From Tremella fuciformis (taxonomy: Eukaryota; Basidiomycota; Tremellomycetes; Tremellales; Tremellaceae), in contig CP136492.1 in assembly GCA_032768795.1 (NCBI GenBank), positions 2,232,001-2,296,000 on the forward strand: a DNA stretch of 64,000 nt. The letters are read 5' to 3'. The notes under the pieces are model-generated. The model searched no databases. It saw only the letters and a program-made list of their open reading frames with translations, and was not told the origin of the DNA. Both the position numbers and the translations under genes were made by a program. Within the stretch, counting starts at the first letter, position 1, and each line of letters begins with the position of its first letter. Of the stretch, positions 18,391 to 56,603 are shown piece after piece.

Positions 18391-18500
18391 TGTCAGAACC
18401 ACGCCCAGGTTATAACGGGACTCGAGATCAAGCGGTCGATCTGCGAGTATTGTACCTTTTGGTCAGTTGTTACCAGAGACCCGTTACTTTGGTCGTGACA
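18391..18500 (+). repeat. Left LTR of TRIM A
   Basis: 110 bp, TGTCA...TGACA, identical to the right copy; TTATAA at 18410-18415. Confidence 0.88.
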
Positions 18501-18501
18501 G

Positions 18502-18515
18502 AATACTCGCAGATC
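18502..18515 (+). other. Self-priming site of TRIM A
   Basis: AATACTCGCAGATC starts two bases after the left LTR ends. It is the exact reverse complement of GATCTGCGAGTATT at 18438-18451 in the LTR. Confidence 0.7.
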
Positions 18516-18740
18516 ACGGGTCAACCGTTCGACTCGCTGCCTCACTCTTTGCTTCTCAGAGCACTTTCTAGTCCGGGAGGTCGGGTCCCGAGGCGCCGCA
18601 TTGGGCATGCGGGCGCTTTAAAGTTCAGCTTCGAGGCAGGAGCAACGCCAGACTTGGAAATTCGCCGACAGGGTGTCGGAGGGAGTTTCAGGTGCAAGCC
18701 TAGTGGCTGTCGGGACGTCAGCCTTGTGGGACGGGGCGAC

Positions 18741-18850
18741 TGTCAGAACCACGCCCAGGTTATAACGGGACTCGAGATCAAGCGGTCGATCTGCGAGTAT
18801 TGTACCTTTTGGTCAGTTGTTACCAGAGACCCGTTACTTTGGTCGTGACA
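18741..18850 (+). repeat. Right LTR of TRIM A
   Basis: 110 bp, identical to the left copy; followed by the GGCGG duplication. Confidence 0.88.
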
Positions 18851-19602
18851 GGCGGTTCATCGACTGGCTCAGCCCCCGTTTGCTCACAGAAGGAGGCGAC
18901 CTCTGTGTTTAGAGTGTCCGGGTCGTCGGGTCTGAATGTGTTTGTTACCACGGCCATACCTTGGCTGTGAGTCTGGGGATATTGTTGCGGGTCCCTCGCA
19001 CTGGGCCCCAAATCTGCAGTCAGTCCCGGCACGAGGGAGACGGAGAGCATCGAATCCCTTTGGCTGCCCGGACGAGACTCAGAGACTGCCAAGGTCCCGG
19101 TGGTGTCCTGGGAGTGCCGGGTGTTGCCCCGACTCGATTCAGCATCGGAAGGGAGTGGCAGAGGGTTGAAGGGATCGGGTAAGGAGTACGCGGGATCACC
19201 GACGCCTCCATCAGTGTGCTCCTGTGAAAAGCCCCTCTTCAGCATCTCCGCTTTGGAGAGCGGTGAGGAAGCTGTGTTGTTCGGATTATTATAGGCGAGC
19301 CCTCCGTGTCCCATGACGTCAACATATGCCTGTGAACGCGCGGTGTGCACCACCGGCACACGCGAGACTGTCGGGCTGTGCAACGTCCCGGCTCTTGTCG
19401 CGGCCTGATAGGGGGAATCCGGAAATTGGTCTAGCAGAGAATCGAGCTCACGGCGCTGAGCTGCCTGGGAAGGCCGCCTCTGTCCGGTTTGGGAGGGCCG
19501 ACGCCTTCGACGGTCATGTCGACCTGTGGGGTCATTGACTCGGCAAGGCTCGTCCTCTTCAGAGTGACGCTCAATCGTGCTGGTGTCTACTGGGGAATCC
19601 AT
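18820..19602 (-). CDS. Disordered protein whose C-terminus was replaced by a TRIM insertion
   Basis: ATG 19602, TAA at 18820-18822, 260 residues. Acidic N-terminus, basic HDRRRRRPSQTGQRRPSQAAQRR patch, then Ser/Pro/Thr-rich sequence with DPAYSLPDPFNPLPLP. No known domain. The last nine residues (VTTKVTGLW) and the stop are read from the right LTR of TRIM A. Skipping the element and one copy of GGCGG, the host frame would instead have run eight more residues to a TAA at 18358-18360. So the insertion swapped the tail rather than destroying the gene. WW-binding through the PAY motif is possible but not canonical. Confidence 0.65.
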   Translation of the reverse strand: MDSPVDTSTIERHSEEDEPCRVNDPTGRHDRRRRRPSQTGQRRPSQAAQRRELDSLLDQFPDSPYQAATRAGTLHSPTVSRVPVVHTARSQAYVDVMGHGGLAYNNPNNTASSPLSKAEMLKRGFSQEHTDGGVGDPAYSLPDPFNPLPLPSDAESSRGNTRHSQDTTGTLAVSESRPGSQRDSMLSVSLVPGLTADLGPSARDPQQYPQTHSQGMAVVTNTFRPDDPDTLNTEVASFCEQTGAEPVDEPPVTTKVTGLW

Positions 19603-19983
19603 TGCGGAATGGACTGCTCAATGTGGCAATAGTGTAGTAGGAGCTGGAAAACAAAGCGGCGGACGATGGGGAAAGAGAACAAGACTTTGATGCTGGTACA
19701 CAGTGCTTTATACGATACTTCGCAGGGAGCTGACCGAGACATTCCAACTTTCTCCCGCCACCGGCTCAAAGGACAGACAGGTGAAGACAAAATCGAAGCT
19801 AAAATTCGAGATGGAGAACCTGCTCGCATACTGTGGCCTGAATGGAGAGTATGCACAGAGGGAGGGGTCTGGGCCCAGTCTGTATTTTATGACGCGCGGA
19901 AAGAATAGGAGGAGCGGGCGAATGCATTCGAGTACGGAGAATCGATTGGCAGTAAGCTAGCAGAAGGACCCGCGTTTTTGGTC
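19603..19983. other. Intergenic region
   Basis: Upstream of the TRIM-tailed gene, downstream of the PPPY gene. Short frames only; nothing recognised. Confidence 0.4.
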
Positions 19984-20637
19984 TCACTCGCGACTTTGGC
20001 ATGGTTCGGGAGCGCCTCGACTCTCCGTCCGGATGCTTCGCGGGGCAGCGTGTGCGCTTGAGGGAACCGTGGTCCGACCCCACTGAGGCACATACTGTGT
20101 TGTACCAGCGCTTTCCGGGATTGAGTGACCGTCGAAAGCTCTTTGAGTAAACGTGCCAATACCGGGGACATCAGCCGGGAAACTTGGTGGTCGTGACCCT
20201 GGGACCAATAGAGCGGCATCGCTTGTCGAAGAAGAGGAAAAGTGCTCTCGTACCAAACCTGAGTACGGAGGGGGCGCGGGGTACGGAGGGGGTGCCGGGT
20301 CTGATGGGGGAGGGGGGTACGAAGGAGGCGGAGGCCGATAATGCGCCTCGTCGGTCACTGAGTGGCGTGCTCGACGATGCTGAGAGACAGGACTGACCGC
20401 GGCGTCACTCCTCAAAGGAGATAAAGAATGAGTACGTGGGGTCGGCGGTTGGTAAGGCTCCTCGTCGCTCCTTGAGAGTCGGCCGGGTTGATGATTCTGC
20501 GCCCCAGCTCTGCCATGAGATTCCTCACTGACTGGGGAAGAGAGAATAGAGCTTGAGAGCTCTCCAAGCTCCGCTAGGGCTCGCGCATTGCGGCCGTTGT
20601 CCGAGAGGCGATCGGTCAGCTCTTGGATACGTCGCAT
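19984..20637 (-). CDS. Proline-rich protein with PPPY repeats
   Basis: ATG 20637 gives 217 residues; the frame extends 12 codons further only to a TTG. The start has a short helix-like MRRIQELTDRLSDNGRNARALAELGELSSS. The middle (roughly residues 100-130) is a proline tract with PPPSYPPPP, APPPYPAPPPYSG, so three PPxY-type WW ligands in a row. The rest is Ser/Arg-rich. No membrane segment. Such clusters of PPxY recruit Nedd4/Rsp5 ubiquitin ligases in fungi; this is an inference. An upstream 5' exon cannot be excluded. Confidence 0.6.
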   Translation of the reverse strand: MRRIQELTDRLSDNGRNARALAELGELSSSILSSPVSEESHGRAGAQNHQPGRLSRSDEEPYQPPTPRTHSLSPLRSDAAVSPVSQHRRARHSVTDEAHYRPPPPSYPPPPSDPAPPPYPAPPPYSGLVREHFSSSSTSDAALLVPGSRPPSFPADVPGIGTFTQRAFDGHSIPESAGTTQYVPQWGRTTVPSSAHAAPRSIRTESRGAPEPCQSRE

Positions 20638-21117
20638 ACGTAGATGACAGACGCCGAGGATGTACAAGGACAAGAACAGAAATCAACAGTCCTGACCTTG
20701 GCAGAAAGACCGAGCGGCCCCAAAGCGGAGGCAGGTCACGGCATAGCACCGTGAGGTCGCTGTAGATAGGAAGGTTGGCGGAGCTAAAGAGACGTGCGAA
20801 GGCGGCGTGGCAGCGAACAGAACGGAACGCCCTCGGCGTGGGAAGCGAGCATGCTACAGGAGTTTATGATGTGGCGTTATGAATGCACGTTACAGATAGC
20901 CGCAAAGTCTTCAATGATATCTGGCGGCTAGACCAGCTACGTGTTTCATTCACCTGTCCATCAAACGGGCCTCCCTCTCAACACGACAGTCGCACAAGGG
21001 GTCCATGAACAATCTCCTCAAGGTTTTCAATTTCGACGGCTTGCCAAGAAGCCACTCACAGAGCGGTCCATAAGAAATGCATGTCACACCATGTTCGACA
21101 AGCGGAAAGCTCAGCGA
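20638..21117. other. Intergenic region
   Basis: Nothing recognised; only short frames. Confidence 0.4.
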
Positions 21118-21669
21118 CTATATGACTGAGGCGCAGAGGACTCGGTCGTCTCTGTGATTCGCAATGGTGTCATCTGGTGAGGGCGTGCCAGAGGCCGAGC
21201 TATGGCCAGCTGGTAAAGCCCTTGCTCGCTCGGAATGCGCTGGAAGCAAATGAGGCGCATGTGGCAGGTCCGTGCGGACCGATACAATGCTCATGGGGTC
21301 CTGGGTCTGGCCTAAAGCTGCCGATCGCCCGCAAGGTCTGGCTTGCTTCTGAGCTTGCGATTTGACGTCATCATTCTGGCTCTCTACCTTGAGGCTATAG
21401 GGAGACTGCCGTCCTGTCACGCCCAACGAGTATGCAGGAACATCGTCAAGAGTCGCGGGCTGAGCTTTGGAAGGGTTCTCCTCTGTGAACTCAGTGGGAA
21501 CGTCCACGAAAAATCGACAGTTTTCGCAGACGTTAGTGCAGTGCCACGTTTGCGGCTCCATGCACGACTCATTGCTGTCGAACAGCTCGTTCGGGGGCTC
21601 CGAAGCAGGTGCTGGCGGTGGCGGGTGCTGACTGCCGGGCTGCTCGGTGTCCTGTGGGAGTGATGGCAT
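21118..21669 (-). CDS. Disordered protein with a small Cys cluster
   Basis: ATG 21669 (context AGAATCATGCC), TAG at 21118-21120, 183 residues; the longer frame to 21759 begins with GTG. Proline-rich start, then CMEPQTWHCTNVCENCRFF (CX7CX3CX2C), which could bind a metal, a VPAYSLG motif like the PAYS of two neighbours, and a basic Ser/Ala-rich tail. No family recognised. The start context resembles that of the paralogues at 27242 and 28281 (AGAAT followed by ATGCC). Confidence 0.55.
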   Translation of the reverse strand: MPSLPQDTEQPGSQHPPPPAPASEPPNELFDSNESCMEPQTWHCTNVCENCRFFVDVPTEFTEENPSKAQPATLDDVPAYSLGVTGRQSPYSLKVESQNDDVKSQAQKQARPCGRSAALGQTQDPMSIVSVRTDLPHAPHLLPAHSERARALPAGHSSASGTPSPDDTIANHRDDRVLCASVI

Positions 21670-22427
21670 GATTCTGCTCCGAAAACTTTGACCTCTACTC
21701 GAAATCAGGTTGTCGGAGACTTGAGCAAGTGGAGAAGCAGTGAGGATAACAGTCGCCACCGCCCCACAAAGATTACTGTTGGCTGCGGGCTATGAAAGGA
21801 CAATCTGCAGCATTCGGAACAAAAAGGAAGAATGGTTCTTCTACTGGAATTCAACGCGCTTCTGCAAGCTTCCACGGCTATGCCGATTGGAGTCGTTGTA
21901 TCAGGCCCTATGGACAACGATCCCCTGTCGGACTCTACTCTTGGGGCGGGCAAAGATACATTCACAGCTGGAGATATGTATCATTCTAAATCTGCGGATC
22001 AGGGGGAAGATGTCATTTTATACAGCACTGCGTGAGGCCATTGTGTTCCGTCCTTCCCATGACATTTGTCGCGCCAAAGGAAGTGTCTGAGACGTTATCT
22101 TATGCCTTCTGATCAGACACTTGATTGTTGTTGACATCGGGTCGGCTGCCGGTCGCATTCCCGTTAAAAGGCCGAGAGCTACTTGAGGCGTTGGACTGCA
22201 CGATCTGCCCAACGCGATATAGGAGCTGTCTGAAGGGAGAAGAATGCCCCGCCACTCTGCCGGTAGGATGAGTAGCATCGGGCGCGGAGTCGTGATGGGA
22301 GATCTGGGGGAATAGATGCATATGAACATGAGCAGTTCCAGACGATACTCGAGAAGAGAACCTTCACAGGCGTTGAAAACGATGTCACTATGAGCTTCAG
22401 AGTCCGTCAACATGTCGTGCAAAATTC
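21670..22427. other. Intergenic region
   Basis: 758 bp between two minus-strand genes. No supportable gene; frames on both strands are short. Confidence 0.4.
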
Positions 22428-23604
22428 TCAGCAATCAGCTTCGGGCTGCCGTCGTGATGCAGGAGAATTGGTCGAGGAGGAGAAACGTAGTCCGCGGAGA
22501 TCTCGTATAGTGTTCGTCAAAGATACCGTTTCCCGCGCGAACTCCAGTTGGCGGCGTATACTCCTTCCTTCCACCTCCCTGAGGAGATTGTCCATTGTCC
22601 TCGGGACGGGTCGAGAAAGCTGCGGGAACATGCCTGACAGACCTGCCACGTCCCCAGGTGAAAGTGGTACTCTTGCGGTCCCCGAGACGTTTGAGTGCGA
22701 TGTAGGTGAATACGCCGGCAATGTCTCAGTGGAATGGCCTAGTGGCCCACCTAAACTTCGGTCGAGGCCAACCGTGGCCGTATACTCGGGTGGCGGATCA
22801 ATCGTGTCAGGATGATCTCCCTGTGATCTGTCGGGAGAAAGACTCTCCGTCTCGCTTGGATTGGTGAAATAGCCTCGGAGGTGACGATATCGGTCGGACA
22901 CAATCCCACCGATCCGTGACAGAACGCGGGGGAGTGGATTGTCTCTTTGCTGAGTGTCAATGTCCGGACCAGAAGGTCCGGCATGGCAGGTTGTCTCTTG
23001 GGACAGCTGCCCGGCCGAAGATTCAGAGCAGGCCTCCGAATCTCGTTTCGTTGGAGTGTTCTTCTCAGGTAGCGGTCCAGCGTGAGAAGAGGTGCAGTGC
23101 GGTGACTCATCCCCTTTCTTCGGTGCGAGGGACTCGACCTCACAAGACGGTGAACTTTCCATTTGCTGGTCATCAACAACAGTTTGCATATTTGCCGAAG
23201 GACCGATCTCCCGATCGTCTGAGTCCAAAAAAGCATTTGAAGACCGTGTAGACACCTCTCTTGCAGCCTCGACCGAGTCGTTATCCGATTCAGCCTCACC
23301 CCACCGATACAGTCCGGCCGCTGCTTCGACTGCAGAGTCCGAGTCATACTCCTGTCGGTCAGAACCCTCCGGCAGTCAGTATCGTAGCCTCAGTACTCGC
23401 AGTTTGCACTACTATCAGTGGAATTTGGCCGATCATCCGCTGCATGAACAAGTCGAGATCGTCCTGGCTCGCCACAGGCAGATCGCTGTTTCGACGTATA
23501 AGCCTTAACGCCGTACCGCTGATGTCCTCCGGAATGATCGACACGGAGACAACAGCTCCCTGGTAGTTCGACGGAAGATGGCGGCGTCGCGAGTTTTCAG
23601 ACAT
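22428..23604 (-). CDS. Disordered protein with PPEY and LPAY motifs, two exons
   Basis: Exon 1 is 23604-23397 (ATG at 23604, MSENSRRRHLPSNY), exon 2 is 23329-22428. The 67-nt intron (GTACTG...TCTGCAG) closes in phase to give 369 residues. Exon 1 has the most ordered part, including a hydrophobic stretch MIGQIPLIVVQTAIEAAAG. The rest is acidic, Ser/Pro/Thr-rich, with DPPPEYTATVG and ETLPAYSPTS about 30 residues apart, and a possible amphipathic tail helix (NLLREVEGRSIRRQLEFARETV). The paired [PL]PxY motifs resemble fungal Rsp5 adaptors, but no arrestin fold or clear membrane anchor is present. Confidence 0.62.
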
Positions 23605-24596
23605 TGTACTAGAGGATTTTGAAGAGACTACAATGTCTCACGGTGCAAAGTCGGAGAGCGGCAAGTCAGCGCAGCGGGGCAATCTGGGGAAGATAGCCAA
23701 CAGGGGGGTCTTTTTAGGCCTTTTATATGCTGTGCAAGCTGGCCGCTCTTCGTCGGGCCCACAAAGGGTGCTTAAGCACAGCATTCGTCGCTCCAACTGC
23801 CTTACGCGTGACATCATGTATGATGAGGCCAAAACGTATTTCCCTCCTTCCATACACTCAAACTAGTTGCAGCTAACCCTCCATTTGCGAAGGCAGATCG
23901 GAAGGCGGGCACCACTCGCCTGTAAACCTGGCAGGCCACCTTCGCGCACGCGTCCGAGGAGGAGGACAATGACGGGTAAGGGTTGCATGGCTGTATGTAC
24001 TCGTTTGAGAAAGTGCTGTTGGCGAGGAACCGGGACATTCCGCAAAATAGGGACAATATTTCGCCAGGCTCTATGACCAGTGCTCTGCGGTATCACCGAG
24101 GGCCCTAGGATCGTTCAGCCGCTCGGACGTCTTGCTCAAAGTCTATGAGCCGTCAAATCAGAGCGTCCTATGAACGTAAGCACGGACTACCTTGACACTG
24201 ATCCTGCCGCGGCGCGATATGCCCAACACTGAGCAGACCACCGTAGCTTAGTCGAGTAATCCGATCGCCTTTTCCTCTGAGGTCCTCCTGTCCAGATCGC
24301 CTCACAACCTCGCGAAAGCTCTTCATTTCGTGCCCCGACGGAAACATGGAGTAGCAGAGGGTCTCAGTCCCTTAGACAAGCTTGCAATCCCAATAGTCAC
24401 CGAGACTGTCCACGAGACTGTCCACATACCTCTCGGAGAGCATGACTGCACACGATGAAACAAAATCCACTCGGGCGGAGGGTGAGACTAAATGAAGGAA
24501 GAATGCATGCGCAAACAAGTCGGGCCATTGAGGGGAGACACAAACGTCGGAAGGTGAGGCGAGATGCCGATACAGTCTTGAGGCTAGTAGTCAGCT
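23605..24596. other. Intergenic region
   Basis: About 1 kb with no supportable gene. A short direct repeat (GAGACTGTCCAC twice) occurs near 24402-24427. Confidence 0.4.
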
Positions 24597-25221
24597 TTAC
24601 GGGTGAAGTTCAAGTGCCTGCGAAGGCTCAGGTCTTGACAGGACAGAACCGGAGTCAGAAGGTCTTGTCCCATGCAAAGTAGGACTAGTCGTCGACGACT
24701 GAATGGGTACGTCACGGCCATTAACAGATGATCCTTCTCCAATCTCCGAAGCCCCATTGGACCCATCCTTCTGATTGTCAATTCCGGACCAAAAGCAACA
24801 TACAGCAGAGGCTCACAGGTTTCTTCATGACGAACGGCGTATTCTTCGTGCCCTGAGTCACTTGAGTTTGCACAGTCTCCGCGATGGCTTTGCTGTCACC
24901 TGCCGCGGCACGGCTGGAGCTTGTTTTGCCTACCTCAGTGGTTTGGCGTTCGTCAACGCTGGGTGCCCGACTGTTGAACGACCTTGCTGCAGGTTCACTC
25001 GTCTCGGATGACTGCCCTGGCCGGATGGACGCCGCCGCACGCCGAGGAACGAATCGAGCTTCAATGTAGCCCGTGTCGCAGAGACGTTGGAATTCAGCGA
25101 TGTCAACGTCCTCAAATGCACGCTCTACCCCAGCCATGAGTATCTGGTGCTCTAACGAAAGCGATGACTGATTCGCAGAGCGGTTCTGCCCAGCGGGCCC
25201 TTGGTCGTCCTGACTGTTCAT
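24597..25221 (-). CDS. Small unrecognised protein, two exons
   Basis: ATG 25221. Exon 1 is 25221-24817; a 46-nt intron begins GTGAGC and ends ACAATCAG; exon 2 is 24770-24597 with TAA. The total is 192 residues. The N-terminal 60 residues look ordered (LEHQILMAGVERAFEDVDIAEFQRLCDTGYIEARFVPR), the remainder is Ser/Thr/Gln-rich. If the intron is retained, the frame stops after eleven extra residues. No family recognised. Same strand and style as the neighbouring genes. Confidence 0.6.
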
Positions 25222-26096
25222 AATGGTCTATCGTGTGTCTTGCGATCGGAGCTAAGGACAAATGCACGACGAAGCTGTTTGTACGGTTGTATTATTGGCT
25301 GGCGCAGTCTCTGCTAGGTGGCGAATGAAGAAGAAATCATGAAGCAGCTCGATTTCAAGTGAACTCGTGTGAAGAAGAGTGGTGGGTCCGGTTGTCAATT
25401 CCTTGCGCCAAAGGAGACGTTTTGGAAGGAAGCCAGCCTTGGATGTTTCTGGAGGTTGCTTCGAGCAGCTGAAGAAGGCCTGACTGCTGTCTGTGCTGCT
25501 GATGGTGGCAAGCCAGCTATGGCGCCCGGGTGAGCCAGACACAATTGGCTGTGATCAAACATCTGGCCACAAAGTAGCAACTACGCACCCTCCTCTCCTC
25601 TTATGATATCCTCACTCTGGACTGAGGAGTCACAATCGTGTTCAGGATTCTCGGTCAGAAGCTCAGATTATGTATGTGTGGCTGTGTGTGGGAGGGCGCA
25701 CAGTGGTTGGTTCGTCTCGGCGCCAGACGGACGAGGTAGAGTTGTGAGCCTCGAGGGACTTCCAAGACCTTTCTGATTGGTCAGACAGAGGGCCTCGGTT
25801 GTTGACGTCAAATTTGAAGAGATGTTCCCAGACCGAAGCATCACGCCAGATGTGACATAGGGCATGTCATCAAGAGATATGATGACTTAGGACTGGGTGT
25901 ATGAACGATGAGAAACTGACATTGCCTAGTAGAAACGTCTCATATGGCACGCCGTATTCAGAGCTCTCGCCCCGCTCAAACTGATGACAGGGGCCCGGGT
26001 GCAGAACGGTCAGTACAATGGGAGGCAGAGCGACCAAGGTAGCCTAGTCATATACATACTTGAGAACATGGATTGGATGAGGCCGTACCACCACTA
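25222..26096. other. Intergenic region
   Basis: 875 bp without a supportable gene. Confidence 0.4.
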
Positions 26097-27242
26097 CTAG
26101 GGCGAACTGGCACTCGATGGCTGATTCGGGTCCCCCGCTTCTGCCTCTGGTTCCTCTGCATGAGGTCCCCGGAGCGCGTCCAGCCTACGCTGCAGCGCCT
26201 CCATTGATCTGGCCGCTTGGTGATGCCTGTAGAACGGCAATTCGAGATCAGCGTCTGACTCTGCCATACGGCTTGGTGCCTGACGAAGCGGATCTTCCTC
26301 TGCACCAGGTACGTCAAGGGTGTCCAGCCTACGCTGCAACGCCTCTATTGACATCGCTGTTTGGCTGTGGCGGTAAAACAATGAATCGCCTCCCTCGTCT
26401 GACTCTGACATACCGCTCAGCACCCGACGAGGAGACTCTTGCTCAACACGAGGTACCTCAAGCGCGTCCATCCCACGCTGTAGCTCCTCCATGGACAAGA
26501 CCTCTTGTTGGAAGTGGTCGAATGGTGATTCGGGCCACGCATCCGACTCTGACATGTCCCTCAGCAACTGACGAAGTGACTCCTCTATGCGAGGTGCCGA
26601 GAGCGCTTCCAGCCCACGCTGCAGCACTTCCATGGAATCGACCACTTGAGAGAAGTCGCCGGGTGGTGATTCGGGCCCCGGGTCTGACTCTGACATACCG
26701 CTCAGAGCCTGACGAACCGGATTCTCCTCTGCGCGAGGTGCCGAATGGGCGTCCAGCCAGCGCCGCAGCTCCTCATGCACCGCGGCCGCTTCGTGGCGGT
26801 TGAGCGGCGCTTCGGGGTAGCGCGCACGCAGTGTCCTCGCTTGCTGCATCATTTGCTCTAAGGTGGGTCCCGTATGACTCGGATTCCCGGCGCTGTCTTG
26901 TTCAAGCTGTGTGGTTGTACGAGGACCGACAGTATGAGTGGGCGAGAGGCCCCGGATTCGTAAGATTGGCTCGCGAGGGGCTGCAGTTTCGTCGCTCTGA
27001 GCACTGGGACCGCGCTCGGAATCCTCGTCCAGCCAGTTCCAATCAGTCTGCGGAGGTGTAGGTGTGCGCGTGGCCGGGGCGCGCGGGCGCCTCGCCGCCG
27101 ACCCAGACGAGGGAGTGGCGGTGAGTTGAGAGGGACGAGACGGCAGGCCTCTACCCCGGGGGGCTGTCACGGAGGGTAGCCCGCTTCTTGGCGTCGCCGT
27201 TGAGCCGAGCTCGCCAATCTCATCCTCTCCGAGATAGGGCAT
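26097..27242 (-). CDS. Repeat-containing acidic protein, paralogue of the next gene
   Basis: Single exon, ATG 27242 (stop in frame just upstream), 381 residues. The N-terminal 110 residues are Pro/Arg/Ser/Thr-rich. The C-terminal 230 consist of about five degenerate 47-residue repeats built on SMEALQRRLDAL..PR.EE.PLRQ.LSGMSESD...SPF. The repeats look helical and coiled-coil-like with an acidic loop. The start MPYLGEDE, the GLPSRPSQLTATPSS block and EQDSAGN match the neighbour at 27679-28281 (MPFVADD, GLPTRQSSLIATRAS, EQDSSAT), and their upstream regions also match. Function unknown; the repeats suggest a protein-interaction scaffold. Confidence 0.68.
   Translation of the reverse strand: MPYLGEDEIGELGSTATPRSGLPSVTAPRGRGLPSRPSQLTATPSSGSAARRPRAPATRTPTPPQTDWNWLDEDSERGPSAQSDETAAPREPILRIRGLSPTHTVGPRTTTQLEQDSAGNPSHTGPTLEQMMQQARTLRARYPEAPLNRHEAAAVHEELRRWLDAHSAPRAEENPVRQALSGMSESDPGPESPPGDFSQVVDSMEVLQRGLEALSAPRIEESLRQLLRDMSESDAWPESPFDHFQQEVLSMEELQRGMDALEVPRVEQESPRRVLSGMSESDEGGDSLFYRHSQTAMSIEALQRRLDTLDVPGAEEDPLRQAPSRMAESDADLELPFYRHHQAARSMEALQRRLDALRGPHAEEPEAEAGDPNQPSSASSP
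26115..26810 (-). repeat. About five 141-147-bp coding repeats
   Basis: Degenerate tandem repeats encoding the 47-residue SMEALQRRLDAL...MSESD unit of the gene 26097-27242. Confidence 0.7.
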
Positions 27243-45484: not shown

Positions 45485-45495
45485 GCCACGGCTTG

Positions 45496-45510
45496 GACCG
45501 CTCGACGGTC
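45496..45510. promoter_or_regulatory. Everted CGG-type inverted repeat
   Basis: GACCG-N5-CGGTC. CGG half-sites in inverted arrangement are the usual targets of Zn2Cys6 dimers. Confidence 0.35.
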
Positions 45511-46050: not shown

Positions 46051-47939
46051 ATGACTCAAGACGCCGCCGGCGCTTCGGTGCCCCAGGCCCACATCAAGGC
46101 CAATGGCCACTTGCCCATAGATGCCGAATGGGTCAAGCCGTCCTGGTGAGTCTGGTCTGGTATCCGAGTCAAGATGGGAGCTGACTTGAAGGATGCGCAA
46201 GGAAGGCGATGCAGTTCCAGAACTCAAAGCTAAAGCCACGACTAACGGTCTTGGCGAGCCGTGGGATGCCGCCAAGCCTACATTCCGCGGTATAGACCTC
46301 GTCAGTCATTCGCTGACTTGTGTTCACGTTGAGGACCAGCTGACGATGTAGACCAAGCCTGATCCGAGACTGAAGGTGCCCGACCTGACCATACATGATC
46401 CCCTGGCCAACCCAGACCAGCGCATCGCTTTCGTCGGTGCGACAATCGTCGATGGGAGCGGGAAGGAAGGATGGGTCGGGGACGTGCTCGTCCACGGCAA
46501 CAGAATCGTCAGAGTCTGCCCCGCCCTGTCCTCAGAAGACAAGAACGGGGCGAAGGTAATCGACTGTAAAGGCAAAGTGCTCATGCCCGGTCTGAGTGAG
46601 TCCACCTTCTCTCTCCAACATCGGGCAGGATATGGAGCAAGGAGGCCGGCGCTGAGGAGCAGCCGACGCTCACACCCATTTCTCATGGACCAACTCGCCC
46701 TCGCTCGCCGGGCTCGCCGACCTCGGCGTCGAAGAACACACGCTCTTCGCCGCCCAGTCCGCACGCACCTTCCTCTCATGCGGCTACACCTCGTGCCTCG
46801 GCGCAGCATCCGCCAAACAGCGACTCGACCTCGTCGTGCGCAACGCCATCAACAGCGGGCAGATCCCCGGCCCGCGCTCCCTCGCGTCGGGGCGCGAGAT
46901 GGCCCCGCTCGTGGGCTCGCTCATACCCGGCATCACGGCCTTCATCGAGTCGCCCGCGCACGCGAAGGAGGTGGTGGACGCCATGGCCGACGAGGGCATC
47001 GACCAGGTCAAACTCAGCATGAGCGGCGAGAGCATTACGGAAGAGGTGGGGCTGCGCGGCGAGGACAGCACGATCCCGGATGAGATTGTCGCGGCGGCCG
47101 TGGAGGCCGCGCATGCGCGCGGCATGCGGGTGTGCGGGCATGCGCGGAGCGACGAGAGCATTAGGCAGTGTCTCCAGTACGGCGTGGACATCATATATCA
47201 CGCGTGTGAGTCGCCTCTTCCTTCTGCCTACTGCCTGCTCACCGCAGCGTTCATATCGGACGAGACGATGGACGCCCTGGAGGTGCAGAAAGACCGCGTG
47301 TTCGTGGCCCCCGCTCTGAACTGGCTCGTCGGCACCCTATATGACGCCGAGTCGTTTGGCTGTACGTGCCCCAGACTCCTATCATTTCCCTACTGACAAA
47401 CAGACCCGACGTCAAAGGCCGAGTCGGTCGGATACGCGCGCGAGCTGGAGATAGCCTGCGCAGGGCTGAAAGAGATGCACAGGAGGGGTGTTCGCATTCT
47501 GCCTGGAGGCGACTACGGGTCAGCACCTCTTCCAGCTTTACACCGCGCGATTTTGGAGCATTGAGTCGTGTGGCTCACCATCAGCTTTGCGTGGACGCCG
47601 CACGGGTCGTATCGCGACCTGTCTCTCTTTGTCAAATACCTCGACTTCACTCCGCTGGAAGCGATCAGTTCGGCCACCAAGCTCGGGGGAGAGATCATGC
47701 TGCACCCGCACGAATTGGGCCTGGTCAAGGAGGGTTACTTGGCCGACTTGCTCCTAGTCTCGGGCGACGTGCAGAAGGATATCGGGGTTCTCGATGGAGG
47801 CAAGGGCGTGGCGATGGTCATGATTGTAAGTTGAATGAATTTGAATCAGAGTGAGGCTGACGGGCAGAATGGCAAGATCCATCGGTTGGAGTCTGGACAG
47901 ACGGGTCTCGAGAATGGGATGAAGAGTGTCGCTATTTGA
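46051..47939 (+). CDS. Amidohydrolase (imidazolonepropionase/HutI-like superfamily)
   Basis: Eight exons: 46051-46145, 46192-46300, 46352-46595, 46663-47205, 47248-47361, 47404-47518, 47585-47825 and 47868-47939; 510 residues. N-terminal beta sandwich with FVGATIVDGSG and GKVLMPGLTDAHTHF (HxH metal ligands about 153 and 155). The TIM barrel gives DQVKLSMSG (bridging Lys), VCGHAR and IIYHASF (His ligands) and LPGGDYGFAWTPHG (Asp). The C-terminal part is ATKLGGEIMLHPHELGLVKEGYLADLLLVSGD, the usual re-entry of the sandwich. A metal-dependent hydrolase of cyclic amides or related C-N bonds. Divergent from the FAH gene, suggesting co-regulation. The substrate cannot be read from the sequence. Confidence 0.92.
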
Positions 47940-48135
47940 CCGAGTCAGGATCGATAATGATGAAGAAGGAGCGACGAGGAGTTGTGAATATTGTAGCTCT
48001 AGTGCATATACATCGACGATAACCTGTATATATTGCTCGACAAATGCAGACAATCTTGACGAGATAGTGACAGGCAGAGCGATACAAGCAAGCAAGCAGA
48101 TCATGGAAAGAATCTAGTGCGCACTGACAACTTCC

Positions 48136-49859
48136 TCACTCACTCTCCATCACCCATCGCGCCCACCGCCGCACAACACCCCTCGCCTCCTCTTGGTATG
48201 GAAATCTCTTCCCACTGCGCACAACGATCATCGCGTGCGAGTTGAATGCCCACGGGAACCAAGTGACCACCTTCTCCACTTGCGGCAGGTACGTCGTGAG
48301 GTTACGCACGATCGTCTTTTGCTCTTCGGTCAGGAGAAGTGGGACTCGGGACGGCGGATGTTCTGGGTCGGAGGGGAGGGTTTCGAACGGCGGTGTGCCG
48401 TCTCTTGACGGCCGCGACGAGGTCGGAGAGGTGTCTTTGATGCTGTGGTGGGGCCGTGTGAACGTGGCAGATGCAAGGGATAGTGGCGGGACAAGCAGTG
48501 GGGGAAAGCTGGAAGGATGTAGGAGACCTCGGGCGAGTCTACGGCGTCTGTCTGTCAGCTCTATCTCTTGACATGCAGTGTTCAGCTGACGACTGGAATG
48601 CTGTGTAAAATAGCCACATGATACTGGATGTAAGTGAAAATCTTATACTCGACTTGTGTCGCTCACGCTATGCAGAGCATGATCACCATCCATATAGGGG
48701 CAATCAGCAAGGGGGCCTGATGCATCAGCTCCGTCTTGGCCTACGACGATGAGCGGGTCGTACATATTTCCACGGCGCTCTGTAGGGAAGAACGAATATG
48801 GGAGGGATCCAATGACTCTCTGGCTGCACCTTCTTCGGCTTCTCCAGCAGCAGAGCATCGACCGCTTCTTCCTCGTCCGACCCGAAGTCCGGCGCAGGGG
48901 CGGGCTCGCCAGGCAGGCGGTACGACGTTACGACGTGATCGTCGTCTGTCTCGATGATCAGATTATCTTGCAAATAGTCGGCATAGGGATCGTGCAGGGA
49001 GAAAGAGGCGGTTGGGTACGGCACTGTCCTGTCCCCGATTCTTCTTTTGAGCATTCAGATTGTCACGCAATGCTTGGAGAGTTACCCATTTGCGACCAGT
49101 TGTATACGCGGAAACGCCGCCAGTGCCTGCATGAATATCATATCTACTGGTAAGTTTCCTATTCGAAACATGAAGGGACGTACTCGGGTCAGCAAGAATC
49201 GACAGCAGGTGGCGGTCATCGTGGTCTTTGTCAAGCAAGTAGATTTGCTGCCCTGTACGCGAGAAGACACGGCGGCCGATGCTGTGCACGACAGTGTTCA
49301 TTTTGCTGCCTGCATCTCAGCGGGCGACCACAGACTGCTGTCGGTACCCACCATACTTCAATATACCGATCCACTGCTCGTCAGCGCTGATCGGTGTTTG
49401 GGAAGATGACGCACAGGACTGGCAAACGTAGAGAAGCTGAGCGGGCGGTGCTTCTCAAAGAACCGTTCCTCCCTAGAAGCAAGTATGCCAAGCAGATACC
49501 TTGCGATCAGACCGCCAAGAGAGTACCCCATGATACTGATGGCCGACACATCCTTGTCGGCAGCCTCTAGCCTGGCGATCTCGTCATCCAGCTGGAGGTC
49601 AGTCACGCCAGCTGGACCAGGTCATGCATACCTCTCGTGCGACCCTCCGAGCATTGACGTCGATGCCGTCCCATGTATGTGCGCCTTCGTAGCCAGCTGG
49701 GAGGAAGACATGTACGGGCAAGCGCGACGAGGACGAAGCGTTGACGATTTCTTCGGCTGGGACGGCGAGGTTGGATGGGGAGCCGTATAGGCCGTGCATG
49801 AGCACGACGAGGTGTATTTCTTCAGGTTTCTGGCCGTCGCCATCTTCCGTGACTCCCAT
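48136..49859 (-). CDS. Putative serine esterase/lipase (DUF676, ROG1-like)
   Basis: Nine exons: 49859-49632, 49591-49415, 49373-49352, 49309-49184, 49143-49086, 49043-48764, 48716-48667, 48623-48591 and 48547-48136; 461 residues. VVLMHGLYGSPSNL at the start, nucleophile in IMGYSLGGLIARYLLG, ANG-R-IGDRTVPYPTASF (acid region), a hydrophobic segment LLIAPIWMVIMLCIAIMWLFY, and a late NSHAMIVVRSG that supplies the His. This is the order found in yeast Rog1/Yor059c lipid-droplet lipases. Exon 3 is 22 nt. The exon 6 acceptor can be 49043 or three bases later (adds or drops one Arg). Stop TGA is at 48136-48138, 196 bp from the convergent amidohydrolase stop. Confidence 0.87.
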
Positions 49860-49971
49860 GGCGCCAGCCTGTGCTCCCTATGATGTCTTGTTGTCTGTGC
49901 TATAGCGGCGAAAGATGCGATGCGATGAGATGATGTTGCTGAGCCGATGGCCGAGGTGACACTCTTGAAAG

Positions 49972-49979
49972 TCACGTGA
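49972..49979. promoter_or_regulatory. TCACGTGA palindrome in the short lipase/RING divergent promoter
   Basis: 8-bp palindrome with a CACGTG core, about 112 bp from both divergent starts. bHLH-type site; role inferred. Confidence 0.35.
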
Positions 49980-50083
49980 TGCCATACACCCTTGCGTTGG
50001 TGAGACGCTTCCTTGCGCTTGGTCGGTAGGATATTTCAGTACCCTACTCTAAGAGCAGAGCAACGCGAGGAGGGCCGAGCACG

Positions 50084-52377
50084 ATGGTGCGCAAGGCGTG
50101 GCTCGAGGACAGAATATACAGTGAGCTTTGATCCAGCTCTCGATAGAGCTCGCGGCAGTGCAGCGGGGATGTGACGAGCTCACAACGCAGTGGACGAGGC
50201 GGAAGGTTTCTTACTCGAACATGCCCTCTTCTCGCCTCCTCGAACATGGCCACCTCTCGCACCGACCCAGAACCAGCATGCCGAGTCGTCGACCTCTCGT
50301 CTGACCGCCGGAAAGAAGAAGATGGACTGGGACGACGAGGTCCGGCTCCATCCCGACGAACCGGTCGATGTGCCCGTTTCCGCCGATGAGACCAAGGGGG
50401 ATGGCGACCACAAGCACCCTGAAGATAGCAACAAGGAGCGATGCGTGATCTGTCTGATGGCTTTGCGGGACCGGACTATTGTCGGCGTGTGCGGCCATGA
50501 GTTCTGTGTGAGCACCCTACTCTACTCTCTAAATGTCGAGACGAGGCTGAGAACAGTTTGAATGTATTGGTGTCTGGGCGAACCAGTCACGGCGCTGCCC
50601 GCTATGCTCTGCCGACATGGCGCCTTTCTTGCTGCATGATCTGGATGCGATCACCCCTATCAAAGTGAGCTCAAGCTATGAAGTCGAGCTGACGGGCCAG
50701 TTCTACCTTCCCCCACTTCCCCAGCGCAAGCTCCCCTCCGCGACCTTGCCCCTCGGACAAAATCGTCGACCGTATGAAGATCCCAGATGGGGTCGAAGGG
50801 AGAAGCTGGAGATGGATGAGTTGGACCACCAGGTAGAGCGCCGGAGAGAAATCTACCAACACGAGCTCTACGTCAAAGTCGGTCTCTCTTCCTCGTCTGA
50901 CGTTACGCTCAACCCATAGCACATCGCCACCAACATGAATACGCGCTTCCGTCCCAACCCAACGCCTCGAGAGATACACGACAACCCTTTGCTCGTCACT
51001 CGCGCCACCACCTTCATGCGCCGCGAGTTGAGAGTGTGGCAGCTGGTCGACGTGGAGTTTCTCACGACCTACATCCTGTCTCTCCTCAAGGCGATAGACA
51101 TCCGCTCGGACCCCGCCATCCGCTTACTCGCAGAGTTTCTAGACACTGACGATTCTCCCTACCCACGTGCCGCGGAGCATTTCGCGCATGAGCTGTATAG
51201 TTTTCTCAGGTCTCCGTACAAGGAGCTGAGGAGGTACGACGAGGTCGCGCAGGTGAGTCTTCGTCAATGAAATCAGTAATTCCGAGTATTGCACTTACTC
51301 CAGTATGATCCCATACCCAGCCCATCTGACGATGCTCGGTCGCAGATCGCCACCGTCTCACGTCACTCGTCGCAAGCACCCGAGGCTCAGGCTCTTTCGC
51401 CAGCTGTGTCAGCCCGCTCACTCTCTCCAGGCGGATCTTCGTATCGCTCTCGCTCTCGCTCTATCTCTCGAAGCCACAGTCCATACTCCCGCAGCTCGTA
51501 CTCGCCATCTCCGCCCCGTGATACGACGAGAAGAGACACCTTCATCCCTACCCCACCGGCCAGTGCCAGGAAGTGGAACGAGGCGGATACATGGCTCGAT
51601 CCTGAATACGCCGCTTGGCTCGACGAAGAGAAGCGGCGGGCTGACGAGCGCATTGCGGCGAGGCGGGAGCGGGCGCGAAGATCTACACTGGAGGCAGGCA
51701 CCGAGCGGCCAATGCGATCCTGGGGCAAACCAGTGGAGTTGTTGCCGTCTCCACCTCCACAGGATGTCAAGCCAACAGGCGCTCTACACATGGATACGGA
51801 CTTGCACCCGCCAACGCCGGCCGCGACGGAAGCAGAGTCACCAACCCATGTTGTGCACATCAAGGGCGCCGCTGGTCAACGTCGCTTGACGCTGCTCGAA
51901 CGACTCGCAAAAGCCAAAGCAGAAGCCGCAGGCTCAGCACCTCCCCCGCCCATCCCTTCCGCTACCAGCAATGATCCTGTACCGTTGGCAAGTGCACGCC
52001 AAGAGCGCGAAGCCGGTCTCAAGGCCATGGTGCGCGCCCGACTCAAGCTTCGCTCAAAGCTCGCCACGGAGCGCGCTACATATACCTATAAAGTCAACGA
52101 GTCGCGCGCGTATGCCCTGCGTGCGAAGCTCCTCGAGGCAAGAGCACGGCGGGAGTCAGAAGAGACCGATGCGACTTTGCGCAAACTCGACAAGATCGAG
52201 AAGGCCAAAGAGGTGCGGAGGCGCTTGATGGTGCTGAAGATGCTGGCCGCCGAGACCGATGCCGAGAGGCGAGCGAGGGAGTTGAAGGCGAGGTTGCTGG
52301 AGAGGAAGAAGTCGGCTAGTCGGAGGATGGACGAGGAAGGACCAGGAGCAGGCCTGGCGGTGTCTGTAACAGCTTAA
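50084..52377 (+). CDS. RING-type E3 ubiquitin ligase, Topors-like
   Basis: Six exons: 50084-50120, 50191-50507, 50557-50664, 50701-50871, 50920-51252 and 51304-52377; 679 residues. RING C3HC4 at about 100-140: CVICLMAL, VCGHEFC, FECIGVWANQSRRCPLC, split by an intron between its C and F. Then LLHDLDAITPIKFYLPPLPQRK and the conserved block RATTFMRRELRVWQLVDVEFLTTYILSLLKAIDIRSDPAIRLLAEFLD, with AEHFAHELYSFLRSPYKELRRYDEVAQYD, as in fungal Topors-like ligases. The last 350 residues are disordered: an RS-rich stretch (RSRSRSISRSHSPYSRSSYSPSP) and a long charged helix rich in Arg, Ala, Glu. Likely nuclear ubiquitin (possibly SUMO) ligase. Confidence 0.9.
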
Positions 52378-52527
52378 GTTTACTCGACAAAGACTATTGC
52401 ATTGCGCTCGCATCTGCGACTGATTTGTCGCAGACACAAAGCATATCGGCAAAGAAAACCTAACAGAGCTATCCCGCTACGCCGCGTCATTCTGACAGTG
52501 CTGCGCGGCTGCAGTGGATGCTTGGGA

Positions 52528-53199
52528 TTAGGCAGGGCCCGATGTGTTCGCATTAACCGTCGTTTTTACAGCGAGAGTCATCTCGTTGCCGGAATATCCC
52601 AGGTATGCGGTCATTCGATGGCTGACAGGAATGGCCAACCAAGGTGTAACATCGACGTCGTCGCCGTAAAGTGTACGATAGTGGTGAGAGGCGAGAACTA
52701 TCGACATCACAGCCAGTGTCAACTCAGGTTTCGCAGAATCACCTGTTGCACCGTCTGTCCTTGCGATGTCGACTCTTCCATCCCCAAGAGTATAAGCAAC
52801 CCCGTATGTTTCGCTGGGCCTGGTGCTCTTGTACAGGACGAATGTATCCCCTCTTGTGCGATGAACGGAATACTTGGGCGCAGAAGATAGTTTTCCTTTA
52901 TTGGGCGCATTGCCATGTGAATGTTTGAGTGCCACGATACTGTCAGCTAGATCCGTGTGCCCATCAGCGCAAAGTGTAATTGTTGGAAGGTTTTGAGGCG
53001 GAATACTGACGCACCCGGGGTATTGATACACTTCCGGGACTTGGATCCGCAGGCCAGTGATAACTCGGAGAGCTTCCAAGACCGGCGGCATGTGGTAGCT
53101 CGCAGAAAAGCATGACGAGTCGAATGCGCTCTTAAGTTCGGCCTCGTCGGCAAATGTCTTTTCTTCGCCTACCCACGTGGGCTGGGACATTGTGCACAT
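52528..53199 (-). CDS. Unrecognised protein
   Basis: ATG 53199 (second ATG 53190), stop at 52528, 223 residues, single frame. Segments LEALRVITGLRIQVPEVYQYPGC, FVLYKSTRPSETYGVAYTLGDGRVDIAR and PELTLAVMSIVLASHHYRTLYGDDVDVTPWLAIPV look ordered and coding. GTGCGT and CTGACAG sites at 52940-53015 would allow an intron, but the open frame is more economical. No motif recognised. It borders the compositionally different island to its right. Confidence 0.6.
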   Translation of the reverse strand: MCTMSQPTWVGEEKTFADEAELKSAFDSSCFSASYHMPPVLEALRVITGLRIQVPEVYQYPGCVSIPPQNLPTITLCADGHTDLADSIVALKHSHGNAPNKGKLSSAPKYSVHRTRGDTFVLYKSTRPSETYGVAYTLGDGRVDIARTDGATGDSAKPELTLAVMSIVLASHHYRTLYGDDVDVTPWLAIPVSHRMTAYLGYSGNEMTLAVKTTVNANTSGPA

Positions 53200-53736
53200 T
53201 TGATCTTGGAGCAAGCTCAAGTGGTGGCTATGCTCGAGGGGCAGAAGGTGGTCTGAGGTGAAGATGTGGAGTGTTGGCGTGATGGTCTATGCTTGCTCCT
53301 TGCTGGTGGTATGTGATCTGATGTTATATATGTCTTCATCCTCAATTTGCCCCATCTTCACCCCTTTTTCCCAAGCAAAGGAGCAAAGGGTTTGGGGCTG
53401 TAATAGTTGGCATTTTGGCAACAATTTTGCACATCTGTACAATCTCCAATCAAGCAATTGCAACTCAAACTTTTTCCAGGTTGCATCTGGAAGCAATGCA
53501 AAGCATTGGCTGCCAATGTACAATATCAGATAGACAGGTGGTTGGGAATCTGTGCAAAATGTCTGTGATGCTGATTCAAATTTTTGATGGTTTCTCTGTT
53601 CTTATCAAATCCCTGAATGGTTGTCAAGTCCACGATTGATGCTTTGCCAACTTCTTGTCTAGCCTGCTCACCACGTGTGACCAACTTTCATGCTTCCTCC
53701 AAATCCTCCTCTTTGTCTGATTAGCACGGAGTGCAA
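53200..53736. other. A/T-richer intergenic DNA
   Basis: No gene. Poly-pyrimidine and AT-rich words (TTTTTCCAGG, GGCAACAATTTTG) differ from the GC-rich host genes. Confidence 0.45.
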
Positions 53737-54530
53737 ATGAAACTGCAGCTAGCATCAAATTTTGCCAGTCAGAAGTTGATTCCACAGAGGATTTGGAATC
53801 TAAGAACGCAGATGTTTGAATTGTTGAAAGGAGTGTACCCACTGACAAGTGAAGCTTTGTGCTTATGTATAGGAGAGGAATCAGCTGGCAAGCCCCTCAA
53901 AGTTGACACAATCTCCCACACTCCACATTTGCCACTCAACATGGATCTTGACAGGTTGACACATGACTCTGCCAATGAGTCCACAACTGACGTGATGAGT
54001 TTGGACGGCCAGAGTGAGGCACCAACATTGGTGGATGATGATGTTTTTGACAATGCATCAACCCTGAAGGAGTACTGCCTGAGCCTTGTACCCAAAATTT
54101 CTGCACATCTAAATCAGATACGGCAGTTTGTAGAATTTCAGATTGGTGTGGTGCCCGATTCCACACCACCGGCTGGCAACACTGAGGCCCCTTCACAAGT
54201 TACAGAGATCACAATATGCGAATTCATTGGGAGTCAGGGGGAAGAAGGATTAAAGATCAGCCAATTCCCTGTTGAGAATACATACATACAAGTCAACATC
54301 CCATGTCCTTCCTGGATTGACAAAACCTGTGAAAAAAATCTCGACCACAACCTTCTGTATGAACTCACTGGCAGGAAGCCCAGTGAGCGGGTTTTTGCAG
54401 TGGACCACTGGCAACTTGATGCGGCATATGGGATGGATCTGAATGCAGATCCTCCCGGGTACATTCGCCAAGCCCCAGAAAGTGAAGGTGACGGCCCCGA
54501 GACCGCAGAGGAGTATACAGGGGTGTTTAG

Positions 54531-54665
54531 TGTCACGCCGGATAGCATAGCTGGCTGCTAACCATTGAACCAAAAGGGCACAATGATCCGACTCATAGCA
54601 ACCTATGCTCGGATCCCAGCTATATAGGCTGAGAATTGGCCACGTGCCATGACCCCGTCATGACA
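54531..54665 (-). repeat. LTR copy 1 of TRIM B
   Basis: 135 bp, TGTCACGCC...GTCATGACA; identical by eye to copies 2 and 3. Confidence 0.87.
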
Positions 54666-54682
54666 CCCTGCCCAACCCGTAA

Positions 54683-54763
54683 TAGGCGCGCCCTCGCGCC
54701 TACCCCACGAGCCTATCTGACCCGAAAACCTCCGGCACGCCTATCGCCTAATGTGCATTAGGC
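54683..54763. other. Two perfect hairpins in the TRIM B spacer
   Basis: TAGGCGCG-CCCT-CGCGCCTA (54683-54702) and GCCTAATG-TG-CATTAGGC (54746-54763), 8-bp arms each. Repeated in the second spacer 342 bp on. Possible RNA packaging or dimerisation structures; inferred. Confidence 0.6.
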
Positions 54764-54854
54764 GCAGCCCTACAGGGCACGACGGACCATCCGTTTTCAA
54801 AAGGCATATAAGATTCGAGCATAGCACACTACGGGGGCTCGAACCCGCAACCTC

Positions 54855-54870
54855 CTATGAGTCGGATCAT
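54855..54870 (-). other. Self-priming site of TRIM B (also at 55197-55212)
   Basis: Minus-strand ATGATCCGACTCATAG, two bases after the LTR. It is a perfect 16-nt complement of LTR sequence at 54583-54598. Confidence 0.7.
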
Positions 54871-54872
54871 AC

Positions 54873-55007
54873 TGTCACGCCGGATAGCATAGCTGGCTGC
54901 TAACCATTGAACCAAAAGGGCACAATGATCCGACTCATAGCAACCTATGCTCGGATCCCAGCTATATAGGCTGAGAATTGGCCACGTGCCATGACCCCGT
55001 CATGACA
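54873..55007 (-). repeat. LTR copy 2 of TRIM B
   Basis: 135 bp, shared LTR between the two tandem units. Confidence 0.87.
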
Positions 55008-55214
55008 CCCTGCCCAACCCGTAATAGGCGCGCCCTCGCGCCTACCCCACGAGCCTATCTGACCCGAAAACCTCCGGCACGCCTATCGCCTAATGTGCAT
55101 TAGGCGCAGCCCTACAGGGCACGACGGACCATCCGTTTTCAAAAGGCATATAAGATTCGAGCATAGCACACTACGGGGGCTCGAACCCGCAACCTCCTAT
55201 GAGTCGGATCATAC

Positions 55215-55349
55215 TGTCACGCCGGATAGCATAGCTGGCTGCTAACCATTGAACCAAAAGGGCACAATGATCCGACTCATAGCAACCTATGCTCGGATCC
55301 CAGCTATATAGGCTGAGAATTGGCCACGTGCCATGACCCCGTCATGACA
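55215..55349 (-). repeat. LTR copy 3 of TRIM B
   Basis: 135 bp, followed by the TTTAG duplication. Confidence 0.87.
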
Positions 55350-56601: not shown

Positions 56602-56603
56602 GT

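Follow-up and report, generated by a model that had tools for sequence, protein, structure and literature searches.

Miniature elements in the window

The window considered here is a stretch of 64,000 nucleotides (nt) from the basidiomycete Tremella fuciformis (GenBank assembly GCA_032768795.1, contig CP136492.1, positions 2,232,001 to 2,296,000), which lies on contig C3 of the genome searched (28.14 Mb, 11 contigs). One host protein gave eight hits, the best at 71% identity; Vanrija albida, at 46%, is the one among them with an organism name, and by this single protein the host would be a basidiomycete yeast near the Trichosporonales. It contains two terminal-repeat retrotransposons in miniature (TRIMs), TRIM A and TRIM B, as well as the chromovirus Chr1 and a Copia element (Table 1). 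With a probability of roughly 0.9, these TRIMs and three additional families found elsewhere in the genome (C, D, and E) are non-autonomous, self-primed long terminal repeat (LTR) retrotransposons, copied and integrated in trans by chromoviruses that are self-primed themselves. The anatomy of the elements, its conservation, the matching of their ends, and two joint insertions can all be read in the DNA.

TRIM A is 460 bp in total, and the unit of TRIM B is 477 bp; both are without coding capacity. TRIM A is flanked on both sides by a GGCGG target duplication. TRIM B comprises two tandem units and three LTRs, a point missing from the sequence-only reading of the window. That reading gave the two elements LTRs of 110 and 135 bp, no genes, and 5-bp duplications, and the coordinates and both duplications (GGCGG and CTAAA) were confirmed. 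It also gave the TRIMs the ends of the window's chromovirus, which is correct for the outer TGTCA..CGTGACA, but the junction between polypurine tract (PPT) and LTR in TRIM A fits a second chromovirus, Chr2, better than Chr1.

The genome has 23 matches to TRIM A, nine of them full elements and 14 of them LTR-only. Both complementary arms are letter-perfect in all nine full copies, and eight have their own perfect 5-bp duplication; for the ninth, the duplication is at the outer ends of a composite. The two LTRs of one A copy (L005, C9:409120) are not of the same A subtype, one of them lacking 5 bp, which suggests recombination between A copies. At L054, the 3' flank after the GGGAG duplication reads ACTCGCAGA, which has nine letters in common with the primer copy of A, one position off.

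For TRIM B there are 15 genome matches, namely the window's two units, which overlap, L011, L012, and 11 that are LTR-only or fragments. L011 is a 99% copy with the duplication GTTAT, and L012, a 79% copy with TCTGG on both sides, represents a subfamily, B2. The arms are perfect in all three B units read (two in the window and one in L011), and the B2 copy keeps 14 nt of complementarity. Thus no copy lacking complementarity, which the sequence-only reading named as evidence against it, was found among the nine full A copies and three B units. The same B2 solo LTR is found in the same flanks at four loci (L018-L021, on C9, C5, and C4), so this B2 insertion was copied inside another repeat. In L023 and in L012 (reverse position 3280), CGTGACA is followed by other starts resembling a primer-binding site (PBS), GCACAATC and GTATCCATTG; judging by these letters, the sites are possibly ends of further families.

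Table 1. Positions of the elements and their parts (window coordinates unless a contig is named)
Feature	Position	Strand	Details
TRIM A 5' LTR	18391..18500	+	110 bp, TGTCA...TGACA; TATA at 18411
TRIM A self-primer segment GATCTGCGAGTATT	18438..18451	+	predicted RNA 5' end; LTR positions 48-61
TRIM A internal region	18501..18740	+	no gene; PPT GGGGCGAC at 3' end
TRIM A primer-binding site	18502..18515	+	perfect 14-nt complement of 18438-18451, 1 nt past LTR
TRIM A box-B-like CGTTCGACTCG	18526..18536	+	8/10 positions, p 0.042-0.055
TRIM A 3' LTR	18741..18850	+	identical to 5' LTR
TRIM B first LTR	55215..55349	-	135 bp; TATA 55304-55310
TRIM B self-primer segment CTATGAGTCGGATCAT	55267..55282	-	16 nt in first LTR
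TRIM B box A TGGTTCAATGG	55246..55256	-	7/7 positions
TRIM B primer-binding site	55197..55212	-	perfect 16-nt complement, 2 nt past LTR
TRIM B box B GGTTCGAGCCC	55177..55187	-	9/10 positions, p 0.0035-0.007; 69 nt from box A
TRIM B middle LTR of tandem	54873..55007	-	
TRIM B last LTR	54531..54665	-	CTAAA duplication outside 54531-55349
TRIM C, three LTRs in tandem	C11:320960-321807 (L109)		multi-LTR loci mostly with identical LTRs
Chr1 5' LTR	56184..56601	+	418 bp; TATA 56331
Chr1 self-primer segment	56364..56377	+	
Chr1 primer-binding site	56604..56617	+	perfect 14-nt complement
Chr1 gag and pol open reading frames	56596..61697	+	gag 56596-57735, pol 57618-61697; reverse transcriptase, RNase H, integrase, chromodomain
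Copia element	9925-15600		154-bp LTRs, single 1686-aa open reading frame

Self-primed chromoviruses

Chr1 has a Ty3/gypsy pol, and its chromodomain matches PF00385 at 3.2e-11 (43.4 bits, against a cut-off of 25.1). Its 3' LTR was not found in the window up to 63500. Elsewhere, a PBS follows the LTR at seven of the 30 Chr1 LTR loci examined, and all seven keep 13-14 nt of complementarity; the copy L105 keeps 13 nt. Chr2 is a second self-primed chromovirus, located outside the window, with 15 nt of complementarity, two 313-bp LTRs (identical over the 300 nt compared), gag, and pol. The pol of Chr2 contains reverse transcriptase, RNase H, integrase, and SH3_Tf2-1 domains, with clear matches for reverse transcriptase, integrase, and SH3_Tf2-1, and a weak chromodomain match (PF00385 at 2.1e-4 and 21.6 bits, under the cut-off of 25.1). 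Two further Chr2 copies keep 15 of 15 nt. In an old Chr2 copy (L101, 83% identical), complementarity has been lost in both arms independently.

Complementarity between the LTR and the primer-binding site

The perfect 14- and 16-nt complements of the LTR proposed for TRIM A and TRIM B do lie directly after the LTR, beginning 1-2 nt past it. Complementarity was scored against the element's own LTR only, and three LTR-only loci (L102-L104) were excluded from the count. When the first 40 nt of internal sequence were shuffled (500 shuffles per element, taking the longest complement anywhere in the LTR), the maxima were 8, 12, 10, 11, and 10 nt for A, B, B2, Chr1, and Chr2, compared to 14, 16, 14, 14, and 15 nt observed. 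The primer starts 27, 28, 30, 27, 33, and 30 nt after the TATA box in A, B, B2, D, Chr1, and Chr2, respectively. In predicted folding, the mean pair probability of primer and PBS is 0.97, 0.96, 0.92, 0.98, 0.98, 0.99, and 0.99 for A, B, B2, D, E, Chr1, and Chr2. The Copia element of the window served as a control, and no complement of at least 4 nt starting 0-3 nt past its LTR was found.

A scan for self-primed ends (110 sources, 363,730 letters, T[GT]ACA ends, arms of at least 12 nt) returned A, B, B2, Chr1, Chr2, a joint on contig C9 that is described below, and the new families D and E. One other candidate, L084, is a plain inverted repeat and is not counted as an element. The seven families A, B, C, D, E, Chr1, and Chr2 have primer sequences unrelated to one another, each with its own matching site, and it is this comparison between families that indicates the arms belong together. 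Complementarity is maintained by sequence identity within families, and the arms co-vary between families only.

The Tf1 pretzel is described in the part of its source used here as an RNA of three duplexes (PMC10085805). The duplex corresponding to its central one is strong in the predicted folds, and the 3' side duplex reaches p 0.013 in A. With other borders, no significant side duplex is found in A, and the 3' side of Chr1 gives p 0.037.

Additional TRIM families

TRIM C was reached by searching the genome with a pattern of the B-type PPT/LTR junction. The 34 sites found consist of three in B, one in B2, 12 in C, and 18 outside these. From the 163 nt read on contig C11, TRIM C has an LTR of 152 bp with TATA at 37 and box A, TGGTGCAGTGG, at 91; the LTR is followed by TA and then ATAACCCGA, the complement of LTR positions 71-79, of which 9 nt are visible where the read stops. 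There are 41 genome matches to TRIM C (40 candidates scored). By their spacing, two or more LTRs lie 336-378 bp apart at 11 loci; 12 of the 41 matches span the PBS at 98-100% identity, and four more do so at 79-85%.

TRIM D and TRIM E came from the self-complementarity scan of loci already retrieved, in which box B was not used. TRIM D (L015:230-941) adjoins a B solo LTR and has three LTRs of 126 bp, all identical, an internal region in full and another that is short, a TTAGG duplication on both sides, and 12-nt arms; its first unit is 519 bp. TRIM E (L098, reverse 1093-1496) adjoins a Chr1 LTR and has two identical 151-bp LTRs and 12-nt arms in about 404 bp.

Helper assignment and joint insertions

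Three autonomous families (Chr1, Chr2, and the Copia element) were compared as helpers. The sequence-only reading considered that LTR ends matching a different autonomous family would count against it, and for the nine full A copies and three B units no such case was found among these three. The 24 letters of the PPT/LTR junction, with p from shuffles, separate the two chromoviruses. TRIM A matches Chr2 at 18 positions (p 0.0015) versus 14 for Chr1 (p 0.20), and TRIM D matches Chr2 at 17 (p 0.011) versus 13 for Chr1 (p 0.22). Chr1 was rejected as the helper of A, its junction match being no better than shuffles. The other families are closer to Chr1: TRIM B has 19 matches (p 0.0004) versus 15 for Chr2 (p 0.25), TRIM C has 19 (p 0.0011) versus 16 (p 0.09), and TRIM E has 16 (p 0.015) versus 14 (p 0.09). 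The sequence GGGSCGACTGTCAG occurs at 25 places in the genome, which are the nine A copies and 16 Chr2 LTR starts (reversed control, 3). The 18 B-type junction sites outside A, B, B2, and C, for example C11:172918, have GGTTGGGCAGAG or GGTCGGGCAGAG directly before TGTCA; these may belong to a further TRIM family or to a further autonomous helper.

In two places a TRIM and a chromovirus appear to have been inserted as one unit. The first (contig C9, L003/L099) reads GTCAA, TRIM A, GAATACTCGCAGATTAC, Chr2, GTCAA. This TRIM A has no duplication of its own, with GTCAA on its left and GAATA on its right, and the GTCAA directly past the 3' LTR of Chr2 is the partner of the letters to the left of TRIM A. 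In the joint, a G is followed by the primer copy of A with 13 of its 14 letters, then by T and AC, after which comes TGTCAG of Chr2, whose own PPT likewise ends in AC. These letters would be expected from the joining of two untrimmed cDNA ends with the self-primer kept on the right end.

The second (contig C1) reads TGGAC, Chr1, GT+AC, TRIM E reversed, TGGAC, so that TRIM E is tail-to-tail with the 3' LTR of Chr1, and the flanks of TRIM E itself (GTCCA and GTACT) differ. GT is the pair of letters between LTR and PBS in both E and Chr1, so GTAC is what would be expected from joining two right cDNA ends, each extending two letters past its LTR. Joint integration at this site also requires that the letters to the left of the Chr1 5' LTR (C1:7322099) be TGGAC, the complement of GTCCA. 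That prediction was written down before the 20 letters concerned were read, and they are TACGTCA-TGGAC-TGTCACGA (chance about 1 in 1000). The Chr1 copy of this composite is judged from its ends. Of two patterns used to search for more joints, one gave two sites (the C9 composite and C2:1948691) and the other gave one, which on reading is no LTR composite; both patterns are blind to tail-to-tail joints such as E-Chr1.

The pairings in the joint insertions, A with Chr2 and E with Chr1, are those favoured by the junctions, which indicates at least two helper chromoviruses. The sequence-only reading's proposal of self-primed elements mobilised by a chromovirus is thus retained for elements that are non-autonomous and use chromovirus enzymes, but not for a single chromovirus (Chr2 is the better match for A; Chr1 is the better match for B, C, and E).

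Shared block and promoter-like boxes

Directly past the primer, A and B have ATTGTRCC(C)TTTTGGT(T)CARTKGTTASCAG in common. A pattern taken from it is present at 35 places in the genome, all within A or B matches (reversed control, 0). The A-B LTR alignment score was reached by none of 5000 shuffles; the score for the internal regions was reached by 2 of 2000 and is not relied on. For the best 20-mer of the block, B versus C has 16 of 20 (reached by 0 of 60 shuffles), A versus B has 15 (2 of 60, borderline), and A versus C has 13 (35 of 60, no better than chance). The description of A, B, and the chromovirus as three unrelated sequences is therefore not upheld, as A and B share this block and C shares it with B. 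By eye only, ACCTTTTGCTTTGAGGGCTTAGCA in TRIM D resembles it.

The blocks shared by the TRIMs are like tRNA promoters, and a perfect box A is located within the block in B, B2, and C. Box A was scored against two consensus strings, and box B, GGTTCGANTCC, was sought in the first 80 nt of the internal region with p from dinucleotide shuffles.

Proposed mechanism and alternatives

From the sequence we infer an RNA start, priming, cutting, and a supply of proteins in trans. Transcription would start inside the LTR, about 28 nt past TATA in A, B, and D, and the first 12-16 nt of the RNA would fold back onto the site just past the LTR. The folded-back 5' end would then be cut off to become the primer, as in Tf1, after which the cDNA would be made by a chromovirus reverse transcriptase, and a chromovirus integrase would insert the cDNA by its TGTCA...CA ends, duplicating 5 bp of the target. 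The Chr2 family would serve A and perhaps D, while Chr1 or a close relative would serve B, C, and E. TRIM cDNA could be linked to helper cDNA at the ends, and the two could integrate together.

Several observations weigh against this reading. Concerning priming, the TATA box of TRIM E is 46 nt before the primer, the 3' side duplex of the pretzel has p 0.07-0.32 in B, B2, Chr1, and Chr2, and no significant 5' side helix was found in A, B, B2, Chr1, and Chr2. Compensatory changes, by which the sequence-only reading expected copies to keep their complementarity, are absent within families in the copies of A, B, Chr1, and Chr2 compared. Concerning the helpers, the junctions of Chr1 and Chr2 share 16 of 24 letters with each other (p 0.03), which sets the scale for such scores and makes the assignment for E weak on the junction score; the 18 additional B-like junction sites may hold a better helper for B. 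Concerning integration, the duplication is kept in just one of the four B-type solo LTRs tested, the C1 joint keeps no primer copy (so that retention is seen in one of two joints), and the Chr1 LTR starts at C1 are 12,964 bp apart, about 5.4 kb above the two other pairs (7600 and 7612 bp).

If the complementarity were instead a hairpin kept for packaging or stability of the RNA, with priming by tRNA or by other means, then primer and site would be expected to form a structural element, and they are indeed the dominant helix in all seven folds. However, the site begins 1-2 nt past the LTR, the position required of a primer, in six of the seven elements the other arm is 27-33 nt past TATA, and the C9 joint ends no more than 1 nt from the predicted end of the primer, all of which make a purely structural hairpin very unlikely. 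Independent side-by-side insertions with loss of the intervening duplications could also produce composites like those at C9 and C1, given that tandem arrays of TRIMs occur (B in the window, D in L015, and C on C11) and that the letters of the C9 joint also equal the start of the A internal region. At C9, however, the sole 5-bp duplication is at the outer ends, the left flank of Chr2 (ATTAC) and the right flank of A (GAATA) are without partners, and there is no A match beyond Chr2; at C1, the flanks of E differ and the outer duplication was predicted beforehand. Separate insertion at both sites is thus very improbable, and joint integration of TRIM and helper is preferred.

A different question is whether the TRIMs may be transcribed by RNA polymerase III (Pol III), in which case the TTTT adjoining the primer would end the RNA in the 3' LTR. 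On the sequence features, the chance of this is close to even. A box-B-like site is found in A and B (Table 1), B2 (p 0.002-0.0075), D (p 0.0005), and E (p 0.007). It begins 22-28 nt beyond the LTR in each of these five (the internal regions read), and both chromoviruses are without it (p 0.75 in Chr1 and 0.71 in Chr2); as box B played no part in finding D and E, these two are a fair test of it. B, B2, and C each have a perfect box A (p 0.004, 0.004, and 0.014), C being judged from its LTR. The distance from box A to box B is 67, 69, and 69 nt in A, B, and B2, and TRIMs of Pol III type exist, namely Cassandra and Helenus (PMC10886601, in the portion used). On the other hand, A, D, and E have a poor box A (p 0.8-0.94, 0.34-0.79, and 0.29-0.54), with A failing both consensus strings, and the Chr1 LTR also has a 7/7 box A (p 0.02-0.03) without box B. 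The A and B stretches have no tRNA match in Rfam (E<=5), ARAGORN found none in the window, and TTTT would also fall early in the 5' transcript. A broader proposal, which is tentative and rated somewhat below an even chance, is that of a new class of hybrid parasite: Pol III TRIMs with a split promoter (box A in the LTR and box B internal), in which only the 5' LTR would fire and the RNA 5' end would be the primer, comprising at least five families within one small genome that would track different chromovirus helpers by the PPT/LTR junction and could travel joined to helper cDNA.

Comparison with known elements

The comparisons here draw on portions of the sources cited. Like Tf1, Tj1, and Tcn1 of the Tf1/sushi group, the TRIMs would use the 5' end of their own RNA (predicted here) as a primer complementary to a site after the LTR, and they have 5-bp duplications (PMC10085805, PMC4600332, PMC7175516); self-priming of Tcn1 from Cryptococcus has been proposed (PMC7175516). 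The proposed helpers Chr1 and Chr2 also carry a Tf2-1-type SH3 domain and a chromodomain, the latter only a weak match in Chr2. Tf1, Tj1, and Tcn1 are autonomous, however, while the TRIMs here are gene-less with about 0.4-0.5 kb per unit, and Tf1 has arms of 11 nt compared to 12-16 nt in these TRIMs.

TRIMs of plants, an ant, cestodes, and bivalves are likewise under 1 kb, with two LTRs of about 100-250 bp, a PBS, a PPT, and no genes (PMC6934838). The usual PBS is complementary to a tRNA, whereas here it is complementary to the element's own LTR. For a bivalve TRIM, self-priming has been discussed, with no clear mechanism proposed in the part of the source used (PMC6934838). Helenus and TRIMp3 are also fungal TRIMs with tRNA-like boxes and 5-bp duplications, and the tRNA-like LTR sequence is not complementary to the PBS in the account drawn on (Kojima 2024, PMC10886601). 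Both boxes of Helenus are in the LTR, whereas here box A is in the LTR (B, B2, and C) and the box-B-like sequence is internal; in addition, Helenus is tRNA-primed and the fungal elements have been ascribed to Copia helpers (PMC10886601). Cassandra resembles the present TRIMs in having a Pol III-type promoter in the LTR (putative here), a short R, and tandem arrays (PMC10886601, PMC7215508), but it is derived from 5S rRNA, is found in plants, has no known helper, and is not described as self-primed in the portions of the sources used.

Self-priming and TRIMs have each long been known or described, but their combination was not found in print, and the helper assignment and the two joints are unusually direct evidence. 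The earlier statement that no TRIM family defined by self-priming has been described agrees with the Creative Commons-licensed PubMed Central literature, the scope of the search, outside which most subscription papers fall. For TRIMs it is often not known which helper they use or where their transcription starts. In these families the likely RNA start can be read from the primer and the probable helper from the PPT/LTR junction, and at each of two sites a joint insertion links a TRIM with an autonomous element. In a small genome with very young copies, this makes it possible to test directly whether TRIMs are mobilised in trans and packaged together with a helper, and what becomes of the self-primer at the end of the cDNA.

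Other features of the window

The LTR of the Copia element has at least 40 genome matches (the best 40 of 154 candidates), among which two pairs are 98-99% identical to the LTR in the window. Four imperfect tandem copies of about 144 bp (26154-26774) overlap a minus-strand open reading frame without a Pfam match, and three 46-bp tandem repeats are located at 63484-63621.

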